From positions 1 to 34,191 of the forward strand of contig WGER01000075.1 in assembly GCA_015492645.1 (NCBI GenBank): a DNA stretch of 34,191 nt. Reading direction: 5' to 3'. A model generated the notes under the pieces. The model saw only the letters and a list, made by a program, of their open reading frames with translations. It did no database searches and was not told the origin of the DNA. Below are positions 10,001 through 34,039 of the stretch, piece after piece. This stretch comes from Nitrospirota bacterium (GTDB lineage Bacteria; Nitrospirota; Thermodesulfovibrionia; Thermodesulfovibrionales; JdFR-85). The stretch's first letter is position 1. The number at the start of each line of letters is the position of its first letter. Both the position numbers and the translations under genes were made by a program.

Positions 10001-12242
10001 CAGATGGGCAGTGCTGGGTGTATCTAATGCGGTAGTGCAGGATGGGGTGCTGGCTAAATGGCTTGCCCTTCCGGAAGACGGTGATTATTGTGTGCGGCTA
10101 ACTGCTGTGGATAAACTTGAGCAAAAAACAGCGACAAGCGTAAATGTAAGGGTTGATACCCATCCCCCTCAGCCTCCTGATCTTTCAGGTGAGACAGAGA
10201 ACAGGACAGACGTAAGGCTGAGATGGACCGCTAATACAGAGCCTGACCTTGCAGGGTACAATCTCTACAGGAATGGCATGAGACTGAATGGTGAACTCAT
10301 TACAGAGATTCAGTATATTGATCGGGGTCTGGCTGAAGGAAGTTATACATATACTGTAAAAGCGGTAGATCGGGCAGGTTGGGAGAGTGGACCCTCCAAT
10401 GAGGTGAAAATAAAGGTTGATCTGACGGGACCCTCTGTGAGGATAGGTCTTCCAGAAGATGGCTCAAGGATAGGTGGCCTCGTTGATATCAAGGGCACAG
10501 CATTTAGCAGGGATGATTTCAAAGAATACAGGCTCTATATGGGAAGAGGCAGTATGCCCGACTCGTGGAGTTTGCTTAGAAGGTCCCCACTGCCGATCTC
10601 ATATGGGGTTCTGGGTAAAATGGATACCACAGGGCTTAAGGATGGAGAGGTATACACCATAAAACTCGAGGCCGAGGATATTGTTGGTAATATCAATACA
10701 ACTCAGGTAACCACCACAGTTGACAATACCCCACCTTCGGCTCCTGTACTACTAACTGTGGTTGCTGACGGAGAGGATGTTACAGTGACCTGGAGTTCAA
10801 ATACAGAGCCAGACCTTGCCGGCTATCTCCTTTACCGTAATGATGAACTGGCCAATAGCGAAAGCGTAGTGATTGGTAACCTCTTTCCGTACGTTTTATC
10901 CGAGACAGTCTACTTCGATGAGGGGCTCCCAGACGGTAGATTCCGATACTATGTGGTTGCAATGGATGAGGCAGGGAATATGAGTGAGGAGTCAAATGCC
11001 ATTGAGGTTGCCATAGACACGCATCCACCCCATGCAGTAATTGTGGAGCCTGAAGATGGAGAGAGGTTTGAGAAGACTATTGTCGTAAGGGCTGATACTG
11101 CTGATCTTGATATAAAACAGGTACGATTTGAATACAGGAGCACAGCAGAGACCACATGGACACCCCTGGCGTCTGCTGACACACCACCCTATATCGTCAA
11201 CCTCAATCCTGAAGAACATGGTTTGACTTACGGAGAGTATAACCTGAGGGCAGTGGCTACGGATGAGGGTGGAAACACAGACCCAACCCCAGGGTTTATC
11301 ACAGTTGTTTATACCGATCTTACCCCACCTGAGGCCCCAGTTGACCTGAAGGCACGAACAGATGGAAGGGATGTCATCCTTAGATGGACGGCTGGTACAG
11401 AGTCAGATCTTCAGGGATATAACATTTACAGGATACATAAAAATGAAAAGGTGAAACTCAATACAGTACCATTAGATGATACCGTTTTTTATGACAGGGG
11501 ACTTGCAGATGGCTTTTATACCTATGAAGTGACGGCTGTTGATATCTATACCAATGAAAGCAGGCCATCCAACCGGGCAGAGGCAAGGGTGTATGCACCT
11601 GTTATAAACCAGCCTTATACGCCTGCAGCAGATAAGGTGGTTCAGATTGAAGGAGAAAAGGCAGAGCCTGATGCAACAGTTGAGGTGTTTGTGGATGCGA
11701 TTTCTCAGGGCACTACAACATCAGACGAAAATGGCCACTTTACATTTGATGTGATCCTTAATCCTGGTGAAAACAGGATAACTGCAAGGTCAGATAAAGA
11801 CGGAAACAGAAGCAGGCTCTCAGAGCAGGTTGTGATTGTCTATAATGAGCCTCCTGCTGCTCCTGCGGGTCTTGTGCCTGATACTAAAGACTACACTGTT
11901 ACACTTACTTGGGATCCAAATACAGAGCCTGACCTGGTTGGATACAATGTCTACAGAGGCGATGAGAGGTTAAACAGACTGATTCTTATGACTTCTGGGA
12001 CCGTCGTGGCATCCAGTTACTATTTCACGCATGAACCTGGACATGCCTTTGATGGGGACCCTTCAACATACTGGATGACCTATTCCTATTCAGGTCAGAT
12101 AGGACCTCAATGGTTGGAGATTGATCTACCAACATCTGAACTTATCAATACAATAGAGGTTCAATGGGAGAGTTTTCAATATTCTGGTAATGTATATGAG
12201 ATACAGGTATGGACAGGTTATACATGGATCATCAGACCATAA
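1026..12242 (+). CDS. Giant secreted multidomain protein, N-terminal part (metallopeptidase-like, toroid, CARDB, propeller, Ig, FN3); broken by frameshift
   Basis: The frame covers 3,738 residues. GGAGG at 1017-1021 favours ATG 1026. Residues 1-30 look like a signal peptide. H161-E-M-L-H165 is an HExxH zinc-metallopeptidase motif, followed by GGDHW near 191 and SPLDLYLMG. Residues about 365-622 carry five QW-type repeats (QNSDGGWG, QNEDGGWG, QNPDGGFG), an alpha/alpha toroid like terpenoid cyclases. Four CARDB domains follow (about 623-1076), then an SPNGDG FlgD-like domain, a TolB-like beta-propeller (about 1182-1637), more FlgD-like domains (starting near 1735, 2432 and 2646), several TPP-linked Ig domains, and FN3 domains from 3044 with the signature NTEPDLAGY. 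A discoidin (F5/8 C) domain starts at about 3656 and is cut by the stop at 12240-12242; its continuation is in the next frame. It is likely exported and cell-surface or extracellular. No substrate can be inferred. Confidence 0.9.
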   Translation: MLLRCMKKGVFFIWCLFFLSTILNLSIVEASEFKVNTIDDYGNITVMEVEGNYDATLPDGTINEGPRQTIAKEFFRLHKDEYDFLVIFTNFNFQMPEEETKAFYHPIKNDVRGIGIDEFDYSALYGSNGRLQGIIDMGNINGLGLTPFEPGFEETLSTLSHEMLHRWGAYVRFRDGNGNVSNALLGRGGDHWSFLLDTDGSVLYGNDWQDNGDGTFTSVGTGKYYSPLDLYLMGFIDRTRVPPMLLIDNPSIEPARLPEKGVTIKGEPQYVTIDDIIAVEGERIPDVYSSQKSFKMAFILLTLPGTFRIEGVFRLEDLRNEWITRFSVLTDGMGIVQVTSTLKEELPENPGVIPPVLKARRLPPDIEDGIRWLMRHQDFDGSWVAIEQTTERDTAEAVLALSNFEMAFEHYLKGLQWLEKTGSRNMDYLVRKVMALTEADRDVTPLIDEILSRQNSDGGWGSGATYMSNPVDTSFALMALAVSGYSGDPSVLIKAIEYLKDRQNEDGGWGSDHSSTVQATTNVLMAFNRYRDSYPLEEYIQRGTQWLMAHQNPDGGFGNSPSTVYDTALSVLALRELNVSTEITNRSLSYLLDNQTESGSWYESPYQTALAVRAVWKANIDPDLSIKAEDISFIPSSVTSLPSDVVITARVWNNGRTGVSQAKVALYRGAISETTKLAEQTLAFPGQSATSVTFPITVKDRNSDSYIIVVDPDNNVKESSETNNQASRYIYLEPTYDFVVTPQDISLSSEKVKIYDNLTITADITNRGTSDAYNLQVRIFIDLPEDPYEIATLNLDVPAGETVTAEYKWDATVEGVSLPLTVEVDPIGFFSELSEDNNRATVPLTVEGATEPNLMVSYKEMVFTPEPAKKLGDLTISVPVKNNGFSDASGVVVEFYLGIPGVDGALIGRQTIEKIAPGENRIVSVLWQKIPVSGEKTVYVTVDPDNLISEIKEDDNEAFRKITILDLPDLAVSTNSITFEPSAPKEGDRVSINVIVKNMGGRDVQDVTVDVYGNNKKVGTEVIPLIGADADASVSFVYDTTGMEGAHEITVKVDPLNLIVEKSEDNNQASRVLGVQDADLWVSEPYISPNGDGIKDSTDFFFRLRTPQTVEVVVIDGNGSTVRVFSGPELTDTTGTTITWDGIDSEGRVVADGQYRIEVVDRDDNVLGGLSVVVDNNRLPFKDAIGTDYLWQKNMTCMLPQINPEQWKWLPDESGIVFWIDYEDSDTPEYPAGLYRMAPDGEDIKRLIPDDWNTSDNPEFIYYNFRGYPSPDSSKVAFLFWKVNRKTQDLSFELWTVDVNGERLNYIDSISPEAWYHGFYNILWSPDGNYLGYIKASAVDDYVLYIVNINTLERIAVDSQVWYTYEGEMAWSPDSTEIAYQAGECDQNYNCYSEIRVADIQGNKRALREINGLLYWFAPDRIVLWGYGDRDEELWLIDTEGDADKRIAESTERYISISPDHRFFAFVAKSQGILSLYLSDIYGNIKQIERLTASDYRCLPYFSRVIWDRESKRIAFMKTVADNDAICSEPYGPFIELFELDTNGSRTIAISSVDGTDVRLNGWLSDGVTIILTDPYQGIFAIDTNHGTEVPILSGYYRDVDISPLERYVTFYRKADSSSICYNKGSNDIWSISSLLNLTVEIRVKSETSHLILKGTATDLYFEGYKLEYADVKEPDRWVLIKPPSDLPVVNDVITVWVPPHKGRFYVRLTAWDRAGNVLQRVRQISWGKPTGIIGLYLTETLFSPNGDGVKDSVELHYKVLDPVHLEFYIYDERGTLIRTFYRDYTETVNDFIVWDGRDDAGNLVSDGLYKIRVFNYEFFVEVDNTLPDINISFSNKNAYPLGWWKYIKGYSQPLWAHVVDKNLKEWRIELGFGDNPERWYRLMGGSSLVSVFDPAGTPLDPPKDILMASFGPESSYLYDFHIVERMIGSTKVPIVKVRRFGIGMDLDWLNNARLRLSASDSGGNRITMMTGFIPERMFIYKVKNDRDKLIEILKGGQIIGPPGVYRFYLQETIREKLDSITVQYMRYWFVDEKRDYVTDWVWNDGESISGVDDGKIEFLWDSSDLESGMRYYVVRFKAVDEAGQEYYSNEVRMGNALDLYSPSCAQMNRVPSFRIYNLIKDLLYLKLQIKAHYWGDDPEFAEWTDFKVWDISKGDEIPEGFFEVEVPVLKEGVLYNIRIVGKDEEGIVYSRETSYPNICVDIEIEPSTEEMPCNSLKTSIDFNVKITVSNPVLIEPDTVWVTFGEQRKEINNLDVRDFGSLEISFDSSLMSEGNHLVNAGFIYRDLVNGITKEATIRLPSYITVDHTPPEADILSPPEGSEVCPVEINTEGKRWSGIPVEGVATDNLGGIYFLQVKKEDGQWATVSTFNSKGESVPLRDGTDKRGLLGIWDVSGLKDRNISLRLKVIDRMGNVSCDETHFLIDKVIEINSIKLNNTLFSPNGDQIMDDVTVYYNTDEAATVDIKVYPVQILPNGDYYLNPVPIRTVASGLKHPGGYGEVIWYGIDDSGGVVPDGIYGIVVNAIDSCSNAGQKGVYVEVDNTAPYVEITKPMEGDPIGNIVEVWGTVRDPNLAEYHLEAINKETGKRISFSSGTRSIDNEVVGRWSTAGLSGSWELVLTATDKVGNKSSKSITVNLADRVSLIKDLKISPEVFSPNGDGRLDKTVILYELTDGCIVDLEIINDSGAVVKRYRTSVDSAGVYKYTWDGTDMLGDVVQEGEYKIKLIASLLSNTTVREEEAITGVVDYTPPRVDITTPLNDSYLDATEIPVVGTISDENLLYYSIINVGPSGEILIDEGSQSREAHTFGILNELPEGQYRLKVVARDSAENTEEKTIVFVLDRTPPEVLLLSPVDGEIYGGREGTVEIKGSITERNLETYIIRYTSVKTPLQWKTLARSEDPPQGDILYQWRTDRDVVEDGIYVLSLYAKDLAGHEAETRVKITIDNTVPLVYIKEPEEGQYIKGPVEVLGTVDDLSLDRYEVEFAEGECSGAYRWAVLGVSNAVVQDGVLAKWLALPEDGDYCVRLTAVDKLEQKTATSVNVRVDTHPPQPPDLSGETENRTDVRLRWTANTEPDLAGYNLYRNGMRLNGELITEIQYIDRGLAEGSYTYTVKAVDRAGWESGPSNEVKIKVDLTGPSVRIGLPEDGSRIGGLVDIKGTAFSRDDFKEYRLYMGRGSMPDSWSLLRRSPLPISYGVLGKMDTTGLKDGEVYTIKLEAEDIVGNINTTQVTTTVDNTPPSAPVLLTVVADGEDVTVTWSSNTEPDLAGYLLYRNDELANSESVVIGNLFPYVLSETVYFDEGLPDGRFRYYVVAMDEAGNMSEESNAIEVAIDTHPPHAVIVEPEDGERFEKTIVVRADTADLDIKQVRFEYRSTAETTWTPLASADTPPYIVNLNPEEHGLTYGEYNLRAVATDEGGNTDPTPGFITVVYTDLTPPEAPVDLKARTDGRDVILRWTAGTESDLQGYNIYRIHKNEKVKLNTVPLDDTVFYDRGLADGFYTYEVTAVDIYTNESRPSNRAEARVYAPVINQPYTPAADKVVQIEGEKAEPDATVEVFVDAISQGTTTSDENGHFTFDVILNPGENRITARSDKDGNRSRLSEQVVIVYNEPPAAPAGLVPDTKDYTVTLTWDPNTEPDLVGYNVYRGDERLNRLILMTSGTVVASSYYFTHEPGHAFDGDPSTYWMTYSYSGQIGPQWLEIDLPTSELINTIEVQWESFQYSGNVYEIQVWTGYTWIIRP
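4281..9015 (+). repeat. Four dispersed SPNGD (FlgD-like Ig) coding repeats
   Basis: Copies of the SPNGD motif open FlgD-like Ig modules near 4285, 6253, 8341 and 8983. The first three share the DNA core TCACCAAATGGTGAC. The fourth is diverged (TCCCCGAATGGGGATGG). Each module then runs through a W-D/Y-G-x-D segment and a (V/Q)xDGxY segment. Identity at DNA level among the first three copies points to duplication within this gene rather than convergence alone. Confidence 0.75.
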
Positions 12243-13068
12243 TAGAGAACAACAGAGAGGAAACCAACAGGATTGAATTCTCTCCTTCATACAGGACAGA
12301 CAGGATCAGGCTTTACATAAAACGGGTTAATGACCCCGAAAGCAGACAGTTGAGGCTGTCGGATGTAAAGATCTGGGTGGACAGGCCTGTTAAAGACAGT
12401 GTTTATACCGATGGAGGCCTCCTTGATGGTAAATACAACTATAGAGTTACCGCAGTTGACTATTATGGATTTGAGAGTTCCCCATCAGATGAGGTACAGG
12501 TAGAAGTAGGTGATACAGAACCACCTGTGCCTCCTCAGGGCCTTGTTGCCACCGCTTCAGGACCTGATGTGCTTCTGACCTGGATGCCCAACACAGAACC
12601 TGACCTGGCAGGATACAACATCTACAGGCTCTCATCTGAGGGATGGTCAAGAATAAATGAGGTGCTGATTACATCACCTGAATACACAGACAGAGGGCTC
12701 TCCAATGGTATCTATACATACAGGGTGACGGCCATTGATGCAGTGGGTAACGAAAGCATGCCCTCAAATGAGGCATCGGCGACTGTGTACATCGGACAGC
12801 CCGGACCACCCCTGAATCTGACAATTACAGCACCTGCTGAAGGGGCCTCCCTTGTGGCGATATGGCAGTATAGCGGTGGTGCATCAGGATACAATCTTTA
12901 CAGAGGCACCGTCTCGGGGGGGCCATATAGTAGAGTCAACAGTATGCCAATCAGAGAGACGACCTATACTGACCGAGGCCTCACAAACGGTACAACTTAT
13001 TACTATGTGGTTACTGCAGTTGATGCCTATGGCAATGAGAGTGCCTACTCCAACGAGGCGATGGGTAT
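10155..13068 (+). repeat. Fibronectin type III repeat series with NTEPDLAGY signature
   Basis: Six FN3 domains share a central signature. Near-identical DNA encoding NTEPDL(A/V)GY occurs at about 10233, 10800, 11919 and 12590. A diverged copy (GTESDLQGY) lies at about 11394 and a weak one (GGASGY) at about 12870. Each domain ends with a Y-T/V-x-A-x-D segment before the next PP-rich linker. The fourth domain is interrupted by the discoidin insertion. The series crosses the frameshift, which supports one original reading frame. Confidence 0.8.
12200..12242 (+). other. Frameshift zone joining the two halves of the giant gene
   Basis: The upstream frame stays open to the TAA at 12240-12242. The downstream frame is open from just after a TGA at 12197-12199. 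The change of frame must therefore lie in these 43 bases. A discoidin domain starts in the first frame (GHAFDGDPSTYW) and finishes in the second (RIRLYIKRV...VKIWVD). The second frame is reached by stepping back one base, so the sequence looks one base short. There is no X-XXY-YYZ slippery heptamer and no homopolymer longer than two bases. A point deletion or sequencing error is more likely than programmed shifting. Confidence 0.85.
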
Positions 13069-16000
13069 ACCAGAAGACACCGTGGCTCCCGCACCTCCCC
13101 TTCTTTACCATCCCATCTATGCCAATGAGAGTGTCAAGTTGAATAGAAAGAGGACCGTTGTTGCCGGAAGTGCCGAGCCCGGTGCCACAATCGAAGTTTA
13201 CAGGAATAACCTGATAGAAAGGGTGGTTACTTCAAGAATTGATGATGGTATCTCTAAGTATCTCCTTGATGCCGAAACAGGTTACATTACACTCTCGAGG
13301 GATGGAAGACATGCAGTGTACGAAAGAGGCGGATCTATATGGTTTATGAGCCTTGACACCGGGTTGTCAGAGATGGTGGTGCCAGAGGGGTACGCGCCAG
13401 TTTTATCGCCTGAGGGTGACAAGATAGCCTATGGTTATTTTGAAGATGGTACACTCCGGATCAGGGTCTACGATCTCACCACACATCAGGATACAACCCT
13501 TACGGATGACTTATATTCAGTTGAGTTAGACCCGGTCTGGTCAGCCGATGGGACAAAGATAGCCTTTGTTAGCAATCGTGAGGACAACAGGTATAATGTA
13601 TGGGTGGCAGACCTGAAGAGAGACTCTCTCACCAGGATCACCAATGTCGACAGTGCAGCCATGCCGAGATTCTCTCCTGACATGAGGTGGATGACCTTTT
13701 TTGAAGGTCAGACACTTTATATTGTAGACCTTTCAACTGAGGAGGTCAGAGAGATTGACTCCCTGACAGATGGATATACCGGGGGCTGGTCTCCAGACAG
13801 TAAAAGGGTTGCCTTTATCTCATACCGCGAGGGAAGGCCAGGGATATACATAATGGATGTCATAACAGGACACCAGTACCTCCTTGTATCCTCTCCAGGT
13901 ATATATGATCTACTGTGGTTGCCGGATGGTAGAGGTGTGGGATATCTGACAGATGAGGGAGGTCTGAGTTCACTATGGATCAAACCAACAGATTCAGAGG
14001 AAGAGAGGGTGCTAATAGAAGGGCTTCTACCCGGTGCCTCTATGCTCTCATCCGGTCCTGGCACAATCGCATTTAGAGAGGAGGACAGTCTCTTTATAGT
14101 TGAATTAAAGGGACACTTTATTATCAGAGACGTTGCTCTGGAAGAAGGGGAAAACACCTTCTATGCAACCGCAGTAGATGACTCCGATAATAGAAGTAAA
14201 CAGTCTGACAGGATTTTGGTAATACTGAATACCGAGAATATGCCAGATCTGGAGATTTCGGATAGTGACATCTACATATATCCTACCTCTCCTGTGGAAG
14301 GTGAAGAGGTGGTAATTAATTTGGTCATATGGAACAGGGGTGAGGCCGATGCTAATAATGTCGAAGTGGACCTTTATGTATGGGATTCCAGTGGTGAGAT
14401 GGATCTACTCAAAACAGAGAGTATAGAGAAGATCCCTGCCCACTCTGCAAGTCTTGTCACTGCAGAATGGAATAGCAGAGGTCACGAGGGTGTTAACAGG
14501 ATAATAGGGGTGGTTGATCCACTGGACGGTATTGATGAGGTGAGGGAATCAAATAACTATTCAATAAAGGAATTTAGAGTGGCTGACAGAGAGGGGCTCC
14601 TTCTCAGGATCTCAACTGATTCAGAACAGTACAGAAGCATGGAGGATGTGGTGATAGATATCACTCTGAGCAACAGTGGAAGAGAGGTGGATGGAATACT
14701 GAGGGTTACTGTAGAGGACGCAAATGGAGATGAGGTGGCCCGGGTCTGTGAGATTGAGATAACCATGCCCTATGCCTCAGAAGAGAGATATTCCTGTAAA
14801 TGGAATACGGACCTTCTGTATGCCGGGCAGTACCGGATTCATACTGTTGTATTAGCCGAGGGAGGCGTGATAGCCGAAGATACAGTGATGATGGTTATCC
14901 TGCCAGATATAGATGTGGACATCCTTCCATCAACAGACAGATCAACTTATCGTCCTAAAGAAGATGTGAAAATTAGTGTTGAGATATTGAACAATGGTCT
15001 GAATTATATCGTTCCAGAGATAATTCTCAAGTTGAAGATCTTAGACCCCATGGGCAGTACGGCCTTTGCAGAGGATCAGAGGGTTACGATGCTATTACCG
15101 ATGACCTCTGTAAAACTGAAAAGCCTCTGGAATACAGGGGTCTCTCTGCCCGGAGATTACACACTTGTTGTTGAGGGTTACCTTGATGGGCAGTTTGTCT
15201 CTCATAGGGAGATGAGATTCTGGATAGAGCCCGAAGTTATGTTTAATGGCAGGATAGTCTCGATGCCCTCCACGCTCGGATACGGGAATAACTTCAGGAT
15301 TGATTATCAGATTAAAAACACCGGAAATGTTTCTGCAAAAGGTGTGACTGTAGAAGTCCAGATAATGGATCCTGACTCACACAATAAGATGGATTCAAGA
15401 CAGGAAGTGTTTGACCTATCAATCAGCGGGACTCATAGGGGGACATTTTACTTTTCTACAGATGGGCTCAGTCTGAAAAGATACAGGGTGGTATTACAGG
15501 TGGAGTTCAGGGGAGTGACCTATCAGATTGATGCAGGCCATCTCACAATAATAGACAATAGACCCCCTCTGGTGGAGGTCCTGACACCAGAGGAAGGTGG
15601 CCACTATAACTCTGAGTTTATAATATCCGTATTGGTTGAGGATGATGGCTCAGGTGTAGAGAATGTCGAATACAGGATGGATGAGGGGGACTGGCAGAAG
15701 ATGGCCCTATCGGACCCCGCCTCTCACAGGTATATGGCAACCTTTAAGCCTACCAATGTGGATGAGGGTGATCATGTCATATACCTGAGGGCAACTGATA
15801 GGGAAGGAAACCAGAGTATACCAGTATCCGTACATATCACAATTGATTTTACACCTCCTGAGCCGCCCCGTATATTATATCCTGAAGATGGTGCCTACCT
15901 GTCATCGGAGGAGGTAGAGATTAAGGGTGTTGCAGAGCCTGGTGCACTTGTAGAGATGGGGTTTATCGAGGTCTTCCAGAGCACAGCAGATCCTGAGACC

Positions 16001-17383
16001 GGTGAGTTTTCTTTCACAGTAAACATTCTTCCGGGAAAGAATGTTCTGCTTTTTACCGCAAAAGACAGGGCAGGAAACATTAGCAGAACAATCAGATACA
16101 CCCTCTACCTCGGCAGACTCGATGTAAAAAAGAGTATATCTTTAAAACCGAGGGTCCTTGTCTGGTTTCTTGGTGAAGATAGGAGAAAGGCCCCATGTAG
16201 ATTGAATAGAGATGGAGGTGGAAGATCTGATGACTGTACAGACCTGATTGAGTTTATAGAAGATTCAATCAGCGGTATGAGCGGGATATATAAGATGGTC
16301 ATTGATGAGGAAGACTTCATTGAGTCTTTCCGGTCAGCCATCTATAATACGTATATAATTGTTGATCTCCATGATTGTGGGACGAGAGGGGATCAACACA
16401 AGAGACAGCATCTTCGGCCAGAAATACAGAGAGAATTAAGGGAGTCCATCTTCAGGGGAGAAGGTGTGGTTGTGGTAAAAAACCATCCTTCTGAGTGGCC
16501 CGAGTTGAGAAAGGCCCTTGGTGTGAAAATCAGGGGAAGGGCGGTAACCAGAGGTGATAAAGTAGTCTTTAGTAGTTCTGAGATATCAGAAGAGACTGTA
16601 GCCGAATTTTACGGCACTTACATACAGGTTGAGAATTACTCAGGTGAGGTGGTAGGATCGTTTAAAGATGGTGATAATCCATCTGTTGTGATCAATCGAT
16701 TTGGAAATGGCTCAACGGTGCTGTTTACATTCAACCCTGTGGATATTGTTAATAGGGAGGTCTCTACTCAGATCTTCCAGAATGCCCTATATTACGTGAG
16801 TCCTAAGGAGCAGGAGATTTATCCATATTCTGTTGTGTCAGTATATATATCTCTCATGGCCAGGTATAGGGACTTTGAGGTGAAGGTGTCAGAAGAGGTG
16901 CCGGACGAGGTTGTGATTGTTCACTCCTCAGAGGGTTTTAAAGTAGATGGACACAGTATAAAATGGGAGGGAGTTGTAAAACAAGATACGATTAAAGAAC
17001 TCTCTTATATGGTCAGAATTCCGGACAGGAGCGGTTCATATCTATTCACGACAGAGGTGTTTTATGTTACTGACAGTTCAGTGTCTGAGCAAGAGAGGAC
17101 AATTATAGTTTCTGTAGATAAGACCTTAGGAGAGATAATGGATTATATAATTTATGCTATTTCAGAGGTCGGATATAGTAATTCCAAAGTTATAGTGAAT
17201 ATACTCAAAAGGATCCAACAACGACCTACAGAGAGCAGAAGAGATATAGAAAAGAGCATCAGAGATATATTAAGGGTTGTGGAATTGATAGAAGATATAG
17301 ACATTGACGGGAAAGAGGATTTGAGACTGACACTGGACAGGATTCTTGTGATGTATGGGGTTATGTGGTCTGAGTCAGGATGA
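12209..17383 (+). CDS. Giant secreted multidomain protein, C-terminal part after the frameshift
   Basis: The frame covers 1,724 residues with no signal peptide and a poor ribosome site at ATG 12209, so it is read here as the continuation of the upstream gene. Order: end of the discoidin domain (to about 58), end of the FN3 domain that contains it (59-102), two more FN3 domains (about 104-290), an Ig domain begun at about 295 and interrupted by a TolB-like beta-propeller (about 343-632; motifs LSPEGDKIAY, WSADGTKIAF, WSPDSKRVAF), then resumed at 634-673. A CARDB domain (about 680-790), several Ig-like domains, and a Rossmann-like region resembling class I amidotransferase/ThuA domains (about 1313-1510, with YIIVDLHDC and FRGEGVVVV) follow. 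A beta domain and a helical tail end the protein. No C-terminal anchor or sorting signal is visible. The stop overlaps the next gene in an ATGA. Confidence 0.85.
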   Translation: MDRLYMDHQTIIENNREETNRIEFSPSYRTDRIRLYIKRVNDPESRQLRLSDVKIWVDRPVKDSVYTDGGLLDGKYNYRVTAVDYYGFESSPSDEVQVEVGDTEPPVPPQGLVATASGPDVLLTWMPNTEPDLAGYNIYRLSSEGWSRINEVLITSPEYTDRGLSNGIYTYRVTAIDAVGNESMPSNEASATVYIGQPGPPLNLTITAPAEGASLVAIWQYSGGASGYNLYRGTVSGGPYSRVNSMPIRETTYTDRGLTNGTTYYYVVTAVDAYGNESAYSNEAMGIPEDTVAPAPPLLYHPIYANESVKLNRKRTVVAGSAEPGATIEVYRNNLIERVVTSRIDDGISKYLLDAETGYITLSRDGRHAVYERGGSIWFMSLDTGLSEMVVPEGYAPVLSPEGDKIAYGYFEDGTLRIRVYDLTTHQDTTLTDDLYSVELDPVWSADGTKIAFVSNREDNRYNVWVADLKRDSLTRITNVDSAAMPRFSPDMRWMTFFEGQTLYIVDLSTEEVREIDSLTDGYTGGWSPDSKRVAFISYREGRPGIYIMDVITGHQYLLVSSPGIYDLLWLPDGRGVGYLTDEGGLSSLWIKPTDSEEERVLIEGLLPGASMLSSGPGTIAFREEDSLFIVELKGHFIIRDVALEEGENTFYATAVDDSDNRSKQSDRILVILNTENMPDLEISDSDIYIYPTSPVEGEEVVINLVIWNRGEADANNVEVDLYVWDSSGEMDLLKTESIEKIPAHSASLVTAEWNSRGHEGVNRIIGVVDPLDGIDEVRESNNYSIKEFRVADREGLLLRISTDSEQYRSMEDVVIDITLSNSGREVDGILRVTVEDANGDEVARVCEIEITMPYASEERYSCKWNTDLLYAGQYRIHTVVLAEGGVIAEDTVMMVILPDIDVDILPSTDRSTYRPKEDVKISVEILNNGLNYIVPEIILKLKILDPMGSTAFAEDQRVTMLLPMTSVKLKSLWNTGVSLPGDYTLVVEGYLDGQFVSHREMRFWIEPEVMFNGRIVSMPSTLGYGNNFRIDYQIKNTGNVSAKGVTVEVQIMDPDSHNKMDSRQEVFDLSISGTHRGTFYFSTDGLSLKRYRVVLQVEFRGVTYQIDAGHLTIIDNRPPLVEVLTPEEGGHYNSEFIISVLVEDDGSGVENVEYRMDEGDWQKMALSDPASHRYMATFKPTNVDEGDHVIYLRATDREGNQSIPVSVHITIDFTPPEPPRILYPEDGAYLSSEEVEIKGVAEPGALVEMGFIEVFQSTADPETGEFSFTVNILPGKNVLLFTAKDRAGNISRTIRYTLYLGRLDVKKSISLKPRVLVWFLGEDRRKAPCRLNRDGGGRSDDCTDLIEFIEDSISGMSGIYKMVIDEEDFIESFRSAIYNTYIIVDLHDCGTRGDQHKRQHLRPEIQRELRESIFRGEGVVVVKNHPSEWPELRKALGVKIRGRAVTRGDKVVFSSSEISEETVAEFYGTYIQVENYSGEVVGSFKDGDNPSVVINRFGNGSTVLFTFNPVDIVNREVSTQIFQNALYYVSPKEQEIYPYSVVSVYISLMARYRDFEVKVSEEVPDEVVIVHSSEGFKVDGHSIKWEGVVKQDTIKELSYMVRIPDRSGSYLFTTEVFYVTDSSVSEQERTIIVSVDKTLGEIMDYIIYAISEVGYSNSKVIVNILKRIQQRPTESRRDIEKSIRDILRVVELIEDIDIDGKEDLRLTLDRILVMYGVMWSESG

Positions 17384-27542: not shown

Positions 27543-28198
27543 TGGTCGTGGGTGATGCCTTCAGAGAGGCCCTTGATGTCCTTAAGAGGAACATGACATT
27601 GGTGCTGCCTGCTGTATTTGGTGCCCTGATAACGAATATATTCTTTCTGCTCATGGTGTCGTCCCTGAAGAGTCCAAAGGGCACCTCCTTAGGGATAGTC
27701 CTGATGCTCTTCAATATCCTGATCTATGCCCTTGTGCAGGGTATGACCATCTCAATGGCCTCGGATGCCCTCAGAAGGGGCAGTTGCTCTATGGGGGAGT
27801 CACTCCATCTGGTCATTCAGAGGCTCTGGGCACTGCTCGCTGCAGCAGGTATCTCAGCAATACTCACAGCCATTGGCTTCTCTTTATTTGTGCTGCCGGG
27901 TTTCCTGGTGATGTTTTTCCTCATGTATACATTTGTGATCCTCATTGTGGAGGAGGCAGGCCCTGTCGATTCACTGAAGAAGAGTTTGACGACTGTATGG
28001 GGGAGCATGAAGGAGTCAGCCCTTGGTTTTGGGGGCCTCTTCTTCTTCGGTCTCGTTGCCTTTGCCATCAGGAGGGCATTACTCGGTATGCCTCTGGTAG
28101 GACAGATCGCGGCCATCTTTGTTAATGGGCTCTTTATGGCCTACTCCTCCCTGGTGCTCCTCGGGCTTTACAACAGGATCAGAAGAGCCGGTCAGTGA
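27542..28198 (+). CDS. Uncharacterised six-helix integral membrane protein
   Basis: The 218-residue reading starts at ATG 27542 (TGATG with the comF stop; GGAGGAG at 27531-27537). The ATG at 27539 is also in frame but only one base from the ribosome site. Hydrophobic segments lie at about 19-40, 50-72, 94-113, 115-137, 161-177 and 185-209. The segment [19 protein letters not shown] after helix four resembles a motif in several loosely defined membrane families (glycerophosphodiester phosphodiesterase membrane-domain-like or DUF975-like). It has no catalytic residues that I can identify. It is the last gene of the plus-strand run and overlaps the convergent ruvB 3' end by 20 bases. Function unknown. 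Confidence 0.8.
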
Positions 28199-29174
28199 TC
28201 GGTATCTTCAGGTGTTCATAGGCGGCCTTTGTTGCCACCCTGCCCCGGGGAGTCCTCTCAATAAATCCCTCCTGCAGTAGATAGGGCTCATAGACATCCT
28301 CCAAGGTCTCCTTGTCTTCCCTCAGAGATGCAGCAAGGGTATCCACTCCTACAGGTCCCCCCCCGTATTTCTCTATTATTGTCCTGAGGAACCTCCTGTC
28401 CATCTCGTCAAGACCCCTGTCGTCCACATCCAGGGCCTTCAGGGCATATCTGGTGATCTCTATGTCTATGACACCGTCCCCCTTAATGTCTGCAAAGTCT
28501 CTTATACGTCTCAGGAGCCTGTTTGCTATCCTGGGAGTCCCCCTGGATCGGCGGGCGATCTCGTAGGCGGCATCTTCTCTGACCTGGACATTCATTATAG
28601 AGGCGGACCTCTTGATTATCATCAGGAGTTCCTCTGGTGAGTAGTACTCCACCCTCATGATCATCCCGAACCTGTCGCGGAGAGGGGAGGTGAGGAGTCC
28701 TGTCCGGGTAGTCGCACCGATCAGGGTGAACCTCGGCAGGTTCACCTTCAGTGTCCTCGCATTTGGACCCTGTCCTATTACGATGTCAAGGTGGAAGTCC
28801 TCCATCGCCGGGTAGAGCACCTCCTCCACAACCCTCGGCAGTCTGTGAATCTCATCTATAAAGAGGATATCATGCTCGTTGAGATTTGTGAGGATTGCAG
28901 CAAGGTCTCCTGCCCTCTCGATCATCGGGCCGGATGTGGCCTTGATATTTACCCCGAGTTCATGGGAGATCACATGGGCAAGGGTGGTCTTGCCGAGCCC
29001 TGGGGGGCCGTAAAATAGGACATGGTCAAGCGGTTCTCCCCTTTTAATTGCCGCCTGTATGAATACAGAGAGGTTCTCTTTGATCTTCTGCTGACCGATA
29101 AAGTCATTGAGGGTTTTTGGTCTGAGTTGTCTCTCTATGCCCTCTTCTTCCGATGACACGTAATCCCTCAACAC
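28179..29174 (-). CDS. ruvB: Holliday junction branch-migration helicase RuvB
   Basis: The protein has 331 residues, typical for RuvB. It is the hexameric AAA+ motor that drives branch migration with RuvA. Walker A is G56-PPGLGKTT-64 and Walker B is ILFIDEIH at 103-110. Sensor-1 ([11 protein letters not shown]), the arginine-finger region (PLRDRFGMI) and a winged-helix C-terminus (ESxR-like [29 protein letters not shown]) are all visible. It starts with GTG 29174, which overlaps the ruvA stop by one base, with GGGAGG upstream. The 3' end is convergent with the membrane-protein gene. RuvC is not in the window. Confidence 0.97.
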
Positions 29175-29746
29175 TACTCTGCCTCCCTGTTGAGATATCT
29201 CAGGGCCTCCTTCAGGGCATCCTCTATGCCCATATCCTTCTGGTAGACCTTCTGCAGGGCCTCCTTGGCCTCTGATGCCCTGTACCCTAAGTTGACAAGC
29301 GCAGACAGAATGTCCTCATACACGGTGTCCTGTATCTTATCTGTGGCAGGCAGTGTCTGTTTCAGTTCAAAGATTATCCTCTTCGCCTTCTTCCTGCCGA
29401 TGCCAGGGAGTCTGCTGAGGATGGCGGTGTCTTCAGAGTCAACAGCCCTGTAAAATTCATCTGCAGTGGTGGCAGAGAGTATGTTCAGGGCGAGTCGGGG
29501 ACCGATACCACTCACACCGAGTAGTGACCTGAATACAGCCCTGTCAGACTCCTGCTGGAATCCATAAAGGGATATTTGACCATCCTTCACATAGGTATGG
29601 ATATAGAGAAATACCTCACTGCCCTCTGGTGGCAGATTTGATAGTACCCTAAGGGGGACCTGGACCTCATAACCAACCCCTCCTGTCTCGATTACCACAC
29701 CACTTGCAGACCTGTGTGTCAGTCTTCCCCTCAGGGTTGAAATCAT
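29174..29746 (-). CDS. ruvA: Holliday junction DNA-binding subunit RuvA
   Basis: The protein has 190 residues, the usual size. The N-terminal OB-fold domain ([27 protein letters not shown] pattern, positions 1-60) is followed by the two helix-hairpin-helix motifs that bind four-way junctions ([16 protein letters not shown] and [16 protein letters not shown]). A C-terminal three-helix domain ([20 protein letters not shown]) contacts RuvB. ATG 29746 overlaps the truD stop in an ATGA, and the stop overlaps the ruvB GTG, so the three genes are translationally coupled. Confidence 0.97.
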
Positions 29747-30915
29747 TTTCGTATTATATCACACTCTATGGCAAAGAGTCTCTTCAGCAGCATTGTCCCG
29801 TATGAACCCTTCGGAAGTGTGAAACTGAGTCTGATGGCCCTGTAGTTGCTGTATACTTCATCGGTCTCTGAGGAACACTGGAGGTCTTCAGGGATCACCA
29901 CCACCTTTCTGTTAAAGGATGGGAACCTGTATTTGAGAAATTGGAGGTTGAACTTCACCCCCTTCAGGCCTCTTTCTTCCAGGATCTCCTCAAGTAGCCT
30001 TGAGGTCCTTTTGTCCTGAAACACCATACTATCAGAGACCACCGGTATGGTGAGATCCTTCAAATAGGAAAATTCCTCAATCTCAGGGGTCCTGTAGAAT
30101 AGATAGTCACCTGCAATTCCCCTATATCTGAGAATCCTCCGGGAGACCTGAACTGTCAGTCTCCTGGCGGTCTCATTCCACAGAAAAGCCTGATAAGCCG
30201 CCACATACATGGATAGTTCCTCTCTGCCTATAAGACGGAGTGCATCCCTGGGGTCCCTTCCCCTGAGGAGGGTGCTGAAGATGTTCTTCTCAAAACCTGT
30301 CTCCGAGACCTCCAAACACCTCTGCCAGTCCCCCCAGCATTCCCTGAGCCTCCTCTTTCTCTGTCTTTCGGCCTTTTTGTCTTCAGGGTAGATATGGGTC
30401 AGGATTATCCTGAGTGCATCAAGGGGCCTGTCCAGAAGGATCTTTTCTGCTATGAACCCCTGTTTGGGGGCATAACTGCCGAACCTCTGATCATCAAAGT
30501 AGTTGATAAAACCCCATCGTGAGACTTCTGCAGAGGCCTCAGCGACCCTTCTGGTATCCTGTTCCCTCAGTTTCCTGACCGTTATCCTGAACCTGTTGCC
30601 CCTTATGAGGTCTGGTCCCATCGGTCTGTACATAGTGCCTATGGGGACAAGAGTATAGTTCTTTTCTTTGATATTGAACTCCCTCCGGTCCTTAATGGTG
30701 ATATACTGTGTGGTGAGGGCATACCGGTCCTTTTTGCCGCCATAGGAGATTGCCTGGAAGGGGACATTCAGTGTCCTGGAGAGTCTCCTGAGCAGGTCAA
30801 GGGTATTCCATCCCCATTTCTTCAGGTGATAGACCCTGTATGGACCGTCCTCTGACAGGGGTAGATAGGCGATCTCCTCTACCTGAAAGTCTTCAGGTCT
30901 GACCTTTATCTTCAC
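29743..30915 (-). CDS. truD: tRNA pseudouridine synthase TruD
   Basis: This 390-residue protein belongs to the TruD family, which isomerises U13 of tRNA-Glu in E. coli and other uridines in eukaryotic Pus7. The start MKIKVRPEDFQVEEI is the family signature. The catalytic aspartate is D63 in GGKKDRYALTTQ, equivalent to GLKDRHA. NRFRITVR, FINYFDDQRFGS and YQAFLWNE are further conserved blocks. The TRUD insertion domain is present (DKKAERQRKRRLRECWGD) and is rich in basic residues. It starts with GTG and overlaps the upstream methyltransferase gene by 23 bases. Confidence 0.93.
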   Translation of the reverse strand: MKIKVRPEDFQVEEIAYLPLSEDGPYRVYHLKKWGWNTLDLLRRLSRTLNVPFQAISYGGKKDRYALTTQYITIKDRREFNIKEKNYTLVPIGTMYRPMGPDLIRGNRFRITVRKLREQDTRRVAEASAEVSRWGFINYFDDQRFGSYAPKQGFIAEKILLDRPLDALRIILTHIYPEDKKAERQRKRRLRECWGDWQRCLEVSETGFEKNIFSTLLRGRDPRDALRLIGREELSMYVAAYQAFLWNETARRLTVQVSRRILRYRGIAGDYLFYRTPEIEEFSYLKDLTIPVVSDSMVFQDKRTSRLLEEILEERGLKGVKFNLQFLKYRFPSFNRKVVVIPEDLQCSSETDEVYSNYRAIRLSFTLPKGSYGTMLLKRLFAIECDIIRK

Positions 30916-31639
30916 GATCCCTCAGGGCCTTCTCTATCTGGGAACATATCCCGTGGAGCATCCTTACCTCCCAGGGCGTCAGACAGGCCCTACCGAAGAG
31001 GTGTCTCAGATTCCGCATAATCCTCTCCTCCATGTCTCTGTCTCCTTTTGGGATGTAACCAAGGGTGCGGAGGGTCTGCCTTATGTGACCATAGAGGTTT
31101 TCCAGTTCCTCGTGAGGTGCGAATTCCGGAGATGGACTCTCGAATGACCCCTCTGAGAGTTCATATGCCACAAGCAAGACCGCCTGTGCAAGGTTCAAGG
31201 AGGGGGCCTCAGCCGAGGTGGGTATGTAAATCAGAAAGCCGCACTCAAGGACCTCCTCATTGGTAAGGCCCCTGTCCTCTCTTCCGAACAGTATGGCCAC
31301 TCTGTTTCTGGATGCCACAGAGATGATCTCCCCCTTGGCCTCTTTGATAGGCAATATCAGGCCCCTCCTTTTTCCGATCCTGCGGGAAGTGCCCACTACC
31401 AGTGCCTTGTCCATTATCGCCTCCTTCAGTGTGGGATAGACCTCTGCCTCCTTCAGGACCTCTGTTGCATGGCAGGCGAGCCAGAAGTCATGGCCCTCTT
31501 CAAACCTCTCAGGGGGATTAACCAGGATGAGGTTTTTGAACCCCATGTTCTTTATCGCCCTTGCCGATGCCCCGATGTTTCCAGGTTCACGGGGTTCCAC
31601 AAGTACAAATGATATGTTGTCCTTCCAATTCTCCATCAT
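30893..31639 (-). CDS. trmJ: TrmH/SPOUT-family RNA 2'-O-methyltransferase (TrmJ group)
   Basis: The reading from ATG 31639 gives 248 residues. The start FVLVEPREPGNIGASARAIKNMGF is typical of TrmJ, which methylates the 2'-OH of residue 32 in tRNA. SPOUT knot motifs follow: ALVVGTSRRIG, VAILFGREDRGLTNEE, and IYIPTSAEAPSLNLAQAVLL. A C-terminal extension (HIRQTLRTLGYI, LRHLFGRACLTPWEVRMLHGICSQIEKAL) also matches TrmJ rather than the shorter TrmL. A TTG at 31678 would add 13 residues (MHLKGQIQLNIYL). Neither start has a clear ribosome site, so the N-terminus is uncertain. It is coupled to truD by overlap, giving a tRNA-modification pair, and follows the Suf-like pair by under 100 bases. Confidence 0.88.
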   Translation of the reverse strand: MMENWKDNISFVLVEPREPGNIGASARAIKNMGFKNLILVNPPERFEEGHDFWLACHATEVLKEAEVYPTLKEAIMDKALVVGTSRRIGKRRGLILPIKEAKGEIISVASRNRVAILFGREDRGLTNEEVLECGFLIYIPTSAEAPSLNLAQAVLLVAYELSEGSFESPSPEFAPHEELENLYGHIRQTLRTLGYIPKGDRDMEERIMRNLRHLFGRACLTPWEVRMLHGICSQIEKALRDREDKGQT

Positions 31640-31716
31640 TAGGTATATATTTAACTGGATCTGACCCTTGAGGTGCAATTGTCAGCAGGTGGGGAGAACC
31701 ATTGAGCCTCTGAAGG

Positions 31717-32664
31717 TCATCTCAGGATCCCTTCCACAATAATCTCGACCGCCCTGTCTGGTGGGACTCCACGTGCCATAAGGGTCTCCATTTGTTGTCT
31801 GTCAACACTACCAATGGCAGCCTCATGGGTCACCTTGGCCTCCGGATGGGTTACCTTTACCACAGGAACAGCACCTGCAACCGCCCTGTCCTTGACTATC
31901 TCCATACAGTCCACGTGCCCCCTCGCACCTGGGGCATTCCCTTCTGTTATCCCTGTAACCTCTGCACTGGCGGTGTCCTCAAGGGCAACACGTGTCTTTA
32001 TAAGGCTTCTCGCACCTGTACCCTTCAAACAGATCCTCTCCTTGATGTTGATCTTATCACTACCACGTCCAAAGACCTTTGCCACCATCTCTACCAGGGC
32101 ACCGGAGTCAGCCTCAGCATCGTAATCGATAGAGAGTTCACCTGCACGACCCTTTATGAGTATGAATTCAGAGGTATACCTGCCGCCCTTACAAACCCTT
32201 ATCCCGGCCTTTGGGTTCACAAAGGCACCACCTTTAAGGCCATGATAATGTGTCTCCCTGTAGCACATCTCGGCACCTTCCTGTATCAGGATTTTCGCAT
32301 CCATTATATGTTTCACTCCCTCTGCCTCAGGGAAGACACAATGGGCAATAAAGGATGCCCTTGAATGGGGCTCCAGAGTAACCTCTATCCTTATCTTTTG
32401 AGTGGCCCTTTTGTGAATTACCCCGAAACATACATGGACAGGATAAATTAGCCTTGCCTCTCTTTTTAGCAACACTCTGGCAGAGATCCCATCTTCTGTC
32501 TCTTCTGCATCAAACTCAAGCCCTTCAACTGTCCTCGCACTCAGTATCCGGTTGCCGACAGCCATAAGGTGGGCAATTTGAGGGTTTTCAAAGATCGCCC
32601 TCTCTCCACCTGTTATCTCAAAGGCCTCTAAGAGTTTTTCTTCATGATCCTTAAGACTGCTCAC
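31717..32664 (-). CDS. Short SufB/SufD-family Fe-S cluster scaffold protein
   Basis: This 315-residue protein is much shorter than E. coli SufB (about 495) and matches the compact form found in archaea and many anaerobes. The C-terminal core carries HVDCMEIV, where C253 aligns with the SufB cysteine (E. coli C405), and KVTHEAAIGSVDRQQ, where H280 aligns with the SufD histidine (H360). Having both in one chain suggests that a homodimer does the work of the SufB-SufD heterodimer. ATG overlaps the end of sufC by 14 bases, so the two proteins are likely made as a complex. No SufS, SufU or separate SufD is seen nearby. The role in Fe-S assembly is a family inference. Confidence 0.88.
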   Translation of the reverse strand: MSSLKDHEEKLLEAFEITGGERAIFENPQIAHLMAVGNRILSARTVEGLEFDAEETEDGISARVLLKREARLIYPVHVCFGVIHKRATQKIRIEVTLEPHSRASFIAHCVFPEAEGVKHIMDAKILIQEGAEMCYRETHYHGLKGGAFVNPKAGIRVCKGGRYTSEFILIKGRAGELSIDYDAEADSGALVEMVAKVFGRGSDKINIKERICLKGTGARSLIKTRVALEDTASAEVTGITEGNAPGARGHVDCMEIVKDRAVAGAVPVVKVTHPEAKVTHEAAIGSVDRQQMETLMARGVPPDRAVEIIVEGILR

Positions 32665-33367
32665 AGGTTACCCCATCACATACAAGACATGTCCTCGACT
32701 TGTACGCCTCTGTAACCTCCTCTGGTGACCCTGTTATATATATCCTTCCAGCACAGATCTGCGATGCCCTGTCTGCACAGAGTGCTATCTCCTCCCTGTG
32801 AGTGATAAGAAGTACCGATGAGCCAAACTCCTTAAACGCCTTGAGAACGTTTATTATATCCTCTGTGGATAGCATATCAATGCCCGAGTCCGGTTCATCA
32901 AGGATGGCGAGTCTTGGCCTCATTGCAAGCACTGAGGCGAGTTCTACCCGTTTCCTTTCTCCACCACTGAGTGAACGGTCAACATTCCTGTCCAAGTAGA
33001 GTTCAGGGTGCAGGCCAACCATCTTCAGACATTCTGAAGGATCTGTATCCCTTCCTGATATCATAAGATACTCCTTTACCGTTATGCCCTCAAATCTTGC
33101 AGGCTCCTGCCAGGCAAGTGTGATCCCGAGCCTTGCCCTTTCATGTATCGGGAGATTGGTTATGTCCTTCCCGTCAAAGATGATCCGCCCCTTTGTTGGT
33201 CTGTAGTTACTGCAGCCCATAATGAGGTAGGCTAGGGTGGTTTTGCCTGTCCCATTGGTGCCAATCAGGGCATGAATCTCTCCATAATGTATTGTCAGAT
33301 TGAGTCGATTCAGGATTGTCCGTGAATCAACTACAAAGGAGACCCCATCAAGGACAAGGAGGTTCAT
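32651..33367 (-). CDS. sufC: SufC-like ABC ATPase for Fe-S cluster assembly
   Basis: The protein has 238 residues. Walker A is G36-TNGTGKTT-44, the Q-loop region is W86-Q-E-P, the ABC signature is L133-SGGERKR-140, and Walker B is LAILDEPDSGID (153-164), where EPDSGxD is the typical SufC form. The H-loop is LLITHREE. Soluble and without membrane partners, it should power the adjacent scaffold. The tail carries C227-x2-C230-x4-C235 (CLVCDGVTC), which E. coli SufC lacks; these could bind metal or a cluster. ATG 33367 has AGAGGTG upstream. It is the first clear gene of the minus-strand run ending at ruvB. Confidence 0.92.
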   Translation of the reverse strand: MNLLVLDGVSFVVDSRTILNRLNLTIHYGEIHALIGTNGTGKTTLAYLIMGCSNYRPTKGRIIFDGKDITNLPIHERARLGITLAWQEPARFEGITVKEYLMISGRDTDPSECLKMVGLHPELYLDRNVDRSLSGGERKRVELASVLAMRPRLAILDEPDSGIDMLSTEDIINVLKAFKEFGSSVLLITHREEIALCADRASQICAGRIYITGSPEEVTEAYKSRTCLVCDGVTCEQS

Positions 33368-33423
33368 AAATGTTCACCTCTCTGCTTTCCTTTTAATCTC
33401 ACCTTCAGTTGCATCTGAAACAT
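33364..33423 (-). CDS. Possible 19-residue leader ORF overlapping the sufC start
   Basis: ATG 33423 is preceded by GGAGG (33431-33435 on the plus strand) at a seven-base spacing, and the ORF stops in an ATGA overlap with the sufC start codon. The product would be a basic 19-mer starting MFQMQLKVRLKG. The good ribosome site and perfect coupling are what make it worth listing; the sequence itself resembles nothing I know. A competing reading in another frame (33374-33493) covers the same bases. Confidence 0.3.
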   Translation of the reverse strand: MFQMQLKVRLKGKQRGEHL

Positions 33424-33493
33424 CGACATTCCTCCAAAAATAATCTACACAAAATGGTATTGTTTTCTCAAAATTGACAAAGAGGGCAACCAT
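33374..33493 (-). CDS. Possible 39-residue ORF or C-terminal gene remnant upstream of sufC
   Basis: The frame from ATG 33493 gives 39 residues starting MVALFVNFEKTIPF and ending DATEGEIKRKAER, with protein-like composition and a charged end. A TAA lies two codons upstream of the ATG and no ribosome site is seen. It may therefore be the tail of a larger gene broken by a frameshift. The 98-residue ORF upstream (33468-33764) runs into it in a different frame. It stops six bases before sufC. No family recognised. Confidence 0.3.
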   Translation of the reverse strand: MVALFVNFEKTIPFCVDYFWRNVDVSDATEGEIKRKAER

Positions 33494-33764
33494 CCGTTAA
33501 ATTTTTATGTTTTAGTACAATCTTTTTTATTTGCTTTTCGAATTCAAAACGTATGGAAATATTTTTGTTATGAGGGCGAATAGTACCTTTTCTGCTCAGA
33601 GAGGTGAGGACAAAGTCAATGTTACCGTTCTGATCATATGAGACCGTGACTGTCCTTTGCCCTGGGTTGTTGATATCAGCCTGCCTTGTGCTGTAAATCA
33701 ACGGCTCAAGCCCGGGGATTTTTATTTCTTTTGTAAGGAGTGTGGTATTGTCGTATTTGGCCAA
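33468..33764 (-). CDS. Doubtful 98-residue ORF, possibly degraded gene
   Basis: The only start is a TTG directly after an in-frame TAA, with no ribosome site. The translation includes TVSYDQNGNIDFVL, a basic stretch, and ends DGCPLCQF. The YDQNGNI piece is loosely like a YD/RHS repeat, but one short match is weak. Base composition is AT-richer by eye than the neighbouring housekeeping genes and similar to the degraded right edge. It may be a fragment that once continued into the 39-residue ORF beside sufC. Function unknown. Confidence 0.3.
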   Translation of the reverse strand: MAKYDNTTLLTKEIKIPGLEPLIYSTRQADINNPGQRTVTVSYDQNGNIDFVLTSLSRKGTIRPHNKNISIRFEFEKQIKKIVLKHKNLTDGCPLCQF

Positions 33765-33815
33765 TTAACCGCCCTTCAGACCCTTAGGGCACAATTAATT
33801 TCACCCTGGCAATAA

Positions 33816-34039
33816 CATTTACACCTTTCAATTACCAGAGACAATGCAGGCAGGATTGTGCAGAGGGTGGAACAGATTCAGGGGGAAACTATTACATGGG
33901 ATTATGGTTATGATGAACTTGGAAGGTTAATAAAGGTAAAGAGAAAGGCACAGTGGTTGAAAGTTACGCCTATGATGCTAATGGAAACAGGATTGAAACG
34001 AATTCATTTAAAGGTGTTGTAGAGATGACATACACCTAA
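33816..34039 (+). pseudogene. RHS/YD-repeat protein fragment, frameshifted and cut by an insertion sequence
   Basis: One frame reads ITRDNAGRIVQRVEQ and then DYGYDELGRLIKV up to about 33938. The next frame continues from 33941 as EKGTVVESYAYDANGNRIE and ends VVEMTYT at TAA 34037-34039. YGYDELGRL and YAYDANGNR are consecutive YD repeats of the RHS family, so this is one coding piece with one missing base near 33938. There is no start codon or ribosome site. Upstream frame continuity is lost at a TAA at 33813-33815. The fragment ends where IS sequence begins. RHS proteins are large surface or toxin-delivery proteins; this copy is not functional as it stands. Confidence 0.8.

Follow-up and report, generated by a model that had tools for sequence, protein, structure and literature searches.

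The experimental literature on SMS that we found comes from archaea throughout, and SMS is discussed there as the ancestor of SUF. In M. jannaschii, cryo-EM places a [4Fe-4S] cluster on SmsC residues C218, C239, and C242, while SmsB alone binds none; ATP and cluster are mutually exclusive, and a solvent molecule has been suggested as the missing fourth ligand (PMC12192291). Variation in the number and spacing of cysteines in SmsC tails has already been described as well (PMC12192291). In Methanothermococcus, SmsC cysteine mutants lack the cluster, and an SmsB quadruple mutant (three cysteines and one histidine) retains it and can still activate aconitase (PMC12584684).

M. maripaludis is without a cysteine desulfurase and uses sulfide (PMC10500019). 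In M. acetivorans, which also has IscSU, SMS is dispensable: deletion of both sufCB pairs left growth and Fe-S content unchanged (PMC10500019). Given the normal Fe-S content of these deletion strains, a role in Fe-S assembly should not be assumed wherever SMS and ISC coexist.

Here we describe an smsCB gene pair from a Nitrospirota bacterium. The window, meaning the whole stretch of DNA that was analyzed, comprises 34,191 nucleotides of contig WGER01000075.1, and its features are summarized in Table 1. The pair is a bacterial member of a known machine, with an extra conserved cysteine in SmsC, and it belongs to an unusual bacterial branch.

The smsCB Locus

Table 1. Features of the window, with two features from other contigs that are referred to in the text.
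Feature	Positions	Strand	Size	Description	Basis
smsC	32651-33367	-	238 aa, ATG start	SufC-type ABC ATPase
smsB	31717-32664	-	315 aa, GTG start	SufB/SufD-type beta-helix protein, short N-terminus
smsC/smsB gene overlap	32651-32664		14 bases	GTGAGCAGTCTTAA	Direct sequence reading
SmsC C-terminal region, C205, C227-x2-C230-x4-C235	32663-32755	-		Cluster-binding by homology	Alignment
SmsB C253, H280, E281	31822-31908	-		SufB/SufD-type residues	Alignment of 52 short SmsBs
trmJ	30893-31678	-		Downstream of smsB	Family match
truD	29743-30915	-		Downstream of smsB	Family match
ruvA	29174-29746	-		Downstream of smsB	Family match
ruvB	28179-29174	-		Downstream of smsB	Family match
trmJ-truD-ruvA-ruvB block	28179-31678	-		Probably co-transcribed with smsCB
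Candidate leader frame	about 33366-33424	-	19 codons	GGAGG site before it, ATGA overlap with the smsC start	Sequence reading
YD-repeat (RHS)-like fragments	33468-34010	both		Possible remnant of a degraded gene	Sequence reading
Giant frame 1	1026-12242	+	3738 aa	Probable large surface or secreted protein
Giant frame 2	12209-17383	+	1724 aa	Probable large surface or secreted protein
HesB/IscA-type frame (L103, contig C13)	5567-5824	-		Looks like a HesB-like selenoprotein	Sequence reading
Joined smsC and smsB (L045, Methanoperedens bin)	5263-6774	+	504 aa	Possible gene fusion or misassembly

SmsB matches the Pfam family SUFBD_core with 62.5 bits (cut-off 27). A Pfam ABC_tran match marks SmsC as an ABC ATPase, and its sequence contains a Walker A motif (GTNGTGKT, residue 36), LSGGE (residue 133), a Walker B motif (LAILDEP, residue 153), and the H-loop motif ITH (residue 188). 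Downstream, only 38 bases separate smsB from the first possible trmJ start, and truD, ruvA, and ruvB each touch or overlap the preceding gene. No sufD, sufS, sufE, sufU, or sufA was found among the frames flanking smsCB, where the upstream side is visible for 824 bases only, the distance from smsC to the end of the contig. A 98-aa frame on that side had no Pfam match.

Further observations concern the ends of the window. The YD-repeat (RHS)-like fragments extend between smsC and the contig end, and the candidate leader frame immediately precedes smsC. Far from smsCB, the two giant frames contain CARDB, prenyltransferase-like toroid, Ig-like, and fibronectin domains.

Identification as a Short-Type SMS

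A first-pass annotation of this DNA had taken the pair for a minimal two-gene SmsCB system, an identity borne out by both sequence and fold matches to MJ0034 and MJ0035. Among solved structures, the best phmmer match of SmsB is M. jannaschii SmsB MJ0034 (E = 5e-68, 37% identity over the length), which at 316 aa is one residue longer, and the best match of SmsC is M. jannaschii SmsC MJ0035 (E = 8.6e-75, 55% identity). The AlphaFold model of SmsB (pLDDT 92) has 9h78_B as its top PDB fold match (Foldseek E 7.5e-23, TM 0.84 by query length). For the SmsC model (pLDDT 88), 9h7x_C ranks first (Z 30.9, 1.9 A rmsd over 226 residues), and comparison with 9h78_A gives Z 27.2 and an rmsd of 2.6 A over 234 residues. 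The E. coli SufBCD complex ranks after the M. jannaschii chains in the fold search, with about 14% identity to SmsB.

Kinship of SmsB with SufD was considered and rejected, as MJ0034 is the optimum in sequence as well as in fold; the protein groups with MJ0034 and the short bacterial SmsBs, not inside classical SufD. Against the NCBIfam model NF052511 (SUF_like_SmsB), SmsB scores 58.1 bits, under the curated cut-off of 650, but the verified M. jannaschii SmsB MJ0034 fails too, with 91.6 bits. This cut-off is thus no boundary marker for SMS, and we set it aside as a test of membership. The results support assignment of the smsCB pair to SMS of the short, methanogen (MJ0034/MJ0035) type and not to SUF.

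Predicted Cluster Site

Three cysteines of the SmsC C-terminal region, C205, C227, and C230, align with MJ0035 C218, C239, and C242, respectively, and are present in all 47 aligned sequences. The next one, C235, aligns with MJ0035 P247, and this position is a cysteine in 43 of the 47. M. jannaschii, genome G149 (an archaeal short form), and Caldithrix are among the sequences without a cysteine there, and all three branch off outside the bacterial clade. C235 is probably the fourth cluster ligand, as judged from the alignment, and could occupy the position suggested for solvent in M. jannaschii; the structural model is silent on this, since its tail after residue 230 has pLDDT < 50.

The first-pass annotation had instead relied on SmsB, arguing that one scaffold protein carries both C253 and H280. 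Both residues are found at the positions it gave (RGHVDCMEIVK and EAKVTHEAAIG), and they align with M. jannaschii SmsB C252 and H279. Across the alignment of short SmsBs, the C253 column holds 51 cysteines and one gap, the H280 column 50 histidines and two gaps, and E281 is invariant where filled. At the level of the alignment, this invariance shows that the residues matter for something. They are not, however, cluster ligands in the nearest characterized systems, and the SmsC cysteines had been missed; the residue argument has to be amended on this point.

Other Fe-S Genes of the Host Genome

The host genome (2,432,978 bases, or 2.43 Mb; 100% complete) contains one SUFBD_core match, in a search that gave a match in all 14 control genomes. 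A single SUFBD protein in a complete genome leaves no room for a hidden SufB or SufD; the claim that the scaffold has no separate partner therefore extends from the locus to the whole assembly. A classical SUF operon elsewhere in the genome was likewise rejected on this single gene, and the desulfurase gene beside iscU is of the NifS/IscS type.

That desulfurase (contig C56) scores 506 bits against NifS vs. 165 against SufS, and it is part of a cluster (L066) with the only IscU-type protein of the genome, an IscR-like regulator, and a TusA-domain protein. Contig C24 encodes another desulfurase-like protein, which appears NifS-like on sequence reading. The co-chaperone HscB was not found in the host genome. 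By gene content, the other Fe-S system of this organism is MIS-type, built on IscS and IscU without HscB, and a check for Isc genes, which the first-pass annotation had proposed, thus reveals a host that is not SMS-only. As a separate observation, the genome has a single HesB/IscA-type (A-type carrier) match, and its frame contains an in-frame TGA within GGG-TGA-S, with a stem-loop after it (L103 in Table 1).

Proposed Working of the Complex

Very probably, smsCB encodes an SmsC2B2 complex of the methanogen-type SMS that carries its cluster on the SmsC tail and acts as a non-core system beside IscS-IscU. The genes, homology, folds, motifs, single-copy status, and co-occurrence with IscSU on which this reading builds were observed here. 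SmsB, a beta-helix protein, would form a homodimer to which two SmsC ATPases are attached. Iron and sulfide would form a [4Fe-4S] cluster on one SmsC tail, bound by C205, C227, and C230, with C235 the probable fourth ligand. The cluster would then be handed to a client, with ATP binding competing with the cluster and ATP binding plus hydrolysis resetting the complex. The cluster site, the ATP cycle, and the use of sulfide are drawn from published work on relatives.

The most likely role of smsCB in this host is that of a second system outside the core supply. Clusters made with sulfur from cysteine would come from the MIS-type IscS-IscU, with SMS as an additional route fed by free sulfide. We infer this accessory role, as we do the fourth ligand and the horizontal acquisition discussed below.

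Distribution, Gene Order, and Phylogeny

Within the order, 46 of 121 genomes encode an SUFBD protein, one per genome, and its length mostly falls into two size classes, about 313-377 aa (the window type) and about 412-461 aa (long). IscU matches occur in 105 of the 121 genomes, including all 18 of the short type. In family f9, none of the 13 sampled genomes has an IscU match and 12 have a long-type SmsB (G009, G022, G032, G042, G052, G062, G071, G079, G087, G095, G103, and G118), so SMS probably carries the whole load there. A congener of the host (G006) has IscU and no smsCB; its trmJ-truD-ruvA-ruvB block is conserved, with a response-regulator gene in the place of smsCB, a comparison that covers the trmJ side of the locus. 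The closest relative of the window SmsB is the sister copy L002, from the same family (genome G102), where smsCB lies beside a P-type cation ATPase gene and beside neither trmJ nor ars genes.

Short SmsBs from Nitrospirota, Myxococcota-labelled bins, Rhodocyclus, Gallionella, and Methanoperedens group together in the tree, away from the long SmsBs. In a careful tree, from which two sequences of 320-339 aa on a very long branch (L068 and L069) were omitted as doubtful, as they were from the arsenic count below, this group split from MJ0034, G149, and Caldithrix at 87/89, and five Methanoperedens-type copies were nested among bacteria. Backbone support was modest and several rows were long, so this tree gives only a tentative view of the number and direction of transfers. 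Of 120 Halobacteriota genomes around a Methanoperedens genome, a close match was found in that genome and one other (44% identity); the remainder had distant matches or none. In one Methanoperedens bin, smsC and smsB read as a single open frame (L045 in Table 1).

The simplest reading is that the smsCB of the window was gained by horizontal transfer. The first-pass annotation had described the system as ancestral, which applies to SMS as such and not to this copy: with IscS-IscU in the host, a congener without smsCB, a patchy distribution in the order, and Methanoperedens copies nested among bacteria, the word misdescribes it.

Arsenic-Resistance Genes near Related Loci

Proteins encoded around related loci were clustered and then named, which yielded ACR3, an ArsP/SaoE-type permease, an ArsE-type thioredoxin, ArsR, and a thioredoxin-type ArsC. 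Under fixed score limits, at least one ars gene lies within 6.5 kb of 24 of the 52 non-redundant short-type smsCB loci (among them L003, L008, L010, L014, L019, L020, L024, L028, L029, L032, L079, and L082). Almost all of these genes share the strand of smsCB, and some touch smsB (L028, L020, L079). No ars gene was found within 6.5 kb of the 18 long-type loci (Fisher p 1.4e-4 vs. the short type) or at the 17 IscU loci from genomes of the short SUFBD size class (p 2.5e-4), p-values that are overstated, given the relatedness of the loci and the choice of families from these very flanks. The IscU-locus control search was not blind to such genes, as the same queries found arsenic genes on contig C27 of the window genome. 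Arsenic linkage, mapped as a label on the tree, shows at least 13 changes.

The window copy has no ars-type neighbor in its 34 kb. An arsenic island as the context of this smsCB was rejected, as the genome has no ArsP, and its ArsC and an ACR3-like protein are encoded on contig C27. In our reading, arsenic linkage is a tendency of the family and does not stand for the function of the window operon. Our literature search found no published report of smsCB in an ars operon, which does not prove that there is none. Other recurrent neighbors of short-type loci are TrmO-like, CDF efflux, ChrA-like transporter, CcdA-like, and P-type cation ATPase genes (L005, L009, L010, L011, L012, L042, and L081).

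Alternative Explanations

The cluster could be held as in SUF, between two SmsB subunits on C253, H280, and E281, with the SmsC cysteines otherwise employed. These SmsB residues, invariant wherever filled, correspond to E. coli SufB C405, SufD H360, and SufB E434, and a ligand role has been proposed for the equivalent residues in Thermococcus SmsB (PMC12442378). We nevertheless consider such a site quite unlikely, given that M. jannaschii SmsB alone carries no cluster and cryo-EM locates it on SmsC (PMC12192291), that mutating the cysteines and histidine of Methanothermococcus SmsB leaves cluster binding and transfer unaffected (PMC12584684), and that the full cysteine site is present in the window SmsC. 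An SmsCB-derived ATPase complex with a role other than Fe-S assembly would fit the lack of any change in growth or Fe-S content in the M. acetivorans sufCB deletions (PMC10500019), but it is very improbable for a pair that keeps all cluster ligands and ATPase motifs and whose relatives bind and transfer [4Fe-4S] (PMC12192291, PMC12584684). A methanogen-type SMS with its cluster on the SmsC tail remains our preferred reading of the complex.

As for origin, SMS has been inferred to be ancient (PMC12192291), and the copy closest to that of the window comes from the same family, as would suit an operon that is a vertical relic of a bacterial or universal ancestor and was lost in most relatives. 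This is rather doubtful, however: the SUFBD protein is confined to 46 of 121 genomes of the order and has two distant forms there, the congener lacks smsCB at a conserved locus, gene order around smsCB differs between the window and its sister, and the Methanoperedens, Rhodocyclus, Gallionella, and Myxococcota-labelled copies lie inside the same gene clade. Horizontal gain stays the simpler account. A tentative and rather unlikely proposal on function is that bacterial short SmsCB may be a stress module that moves with metal and metalloid resistance genes and restores Fe-S clusters after damage by arsenite or soft metals. The frequency of ars genes near short-type loci (24/52 vs. 0/18 long-type and 0/17 IscU loci) and the repeated changes of the linkage label speak for it. 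Against it, the window copy has no ars neighbor and its genome keeps ArsC and the ACR3-like protein elsewhere, the sister copy adjoins a P-type cation ATPase gene instead, and the idea is read from the neighborhoods of related loci, with gene families picked from the same flanks. Equally tentative is a broader picture in which bacterial short SMS would be a mobile accessory scaffold, with a four-cysteine [4Fe-4S] site and links to metal resistance, passed from bacteria to Methanoperedens and serving cluster repair under metalloid stress and not general supply.

Significance and Comparison with Known Systems

A bacterial smsCB beside IscS-IscU indicates that SMS is also an option that bacterial genomes gain or lose. 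The order offers a natural comparison among genomes with long-type SMS and no detected IscU, with IscU only, and with IscU plus short SMS, and this mix makes it well suited to asking what SMS can do beyond the reach of IscSU. A single mutation of the conserved C235 can test the fourth-ligand question, and the arsenic genes so often found nearby suggest an initial, testable idea of why smsCB is retained in bacteria. In our view, the fourth SmsC cysteine and the recurrent arsenic-island setting in the bacterial branch are the parts worth following.

The M. jannaschii SMS (MJ0035/MJ0034; structures 9H78, 9H7X, 9H7Y, and 9HBL) consists of the same gene pair, with similar lengths, fold, and ATPase motifs. 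The three SmsC cysteine ligands are shared, and SmsB C252, H279, and E280 have equivalents in the window protein. The differences lie in the bacterial host with its IscS-IscU, in C235 vs. P247, and in sequence, with 37% (SmsB) and 55% (SmsC) identity. The SMS of M. maripaludis and M. thermolithotrophicus (SufB2C2; PMC12584684) has in common with the window pair a two-protein scaffold and a CXnCXXC tail on SmsC, but only three C-terminal cysteines are reported for SmsC there (PMC12584684). A two-protein scaffold without SufD is also found in T. kodakarensis (TK0730/TK0731; PMC12442378), whose SmsB is of the long form (430-450 aa); the long form of the order is separate from that of the window in the tree. 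E. coli SUF (SufBC2D) shares the SufB/SufD beta-helix fold and the SufC-type ATPase, whereas the window has no SufD partner, and E. coli SufC is without the C-terminal cysteine tail (PMC12584684). In gene content, the host follows the same pattern as M. acetivorans, which combines SMS with a minimal IscS-IscU system (PMC10500019).
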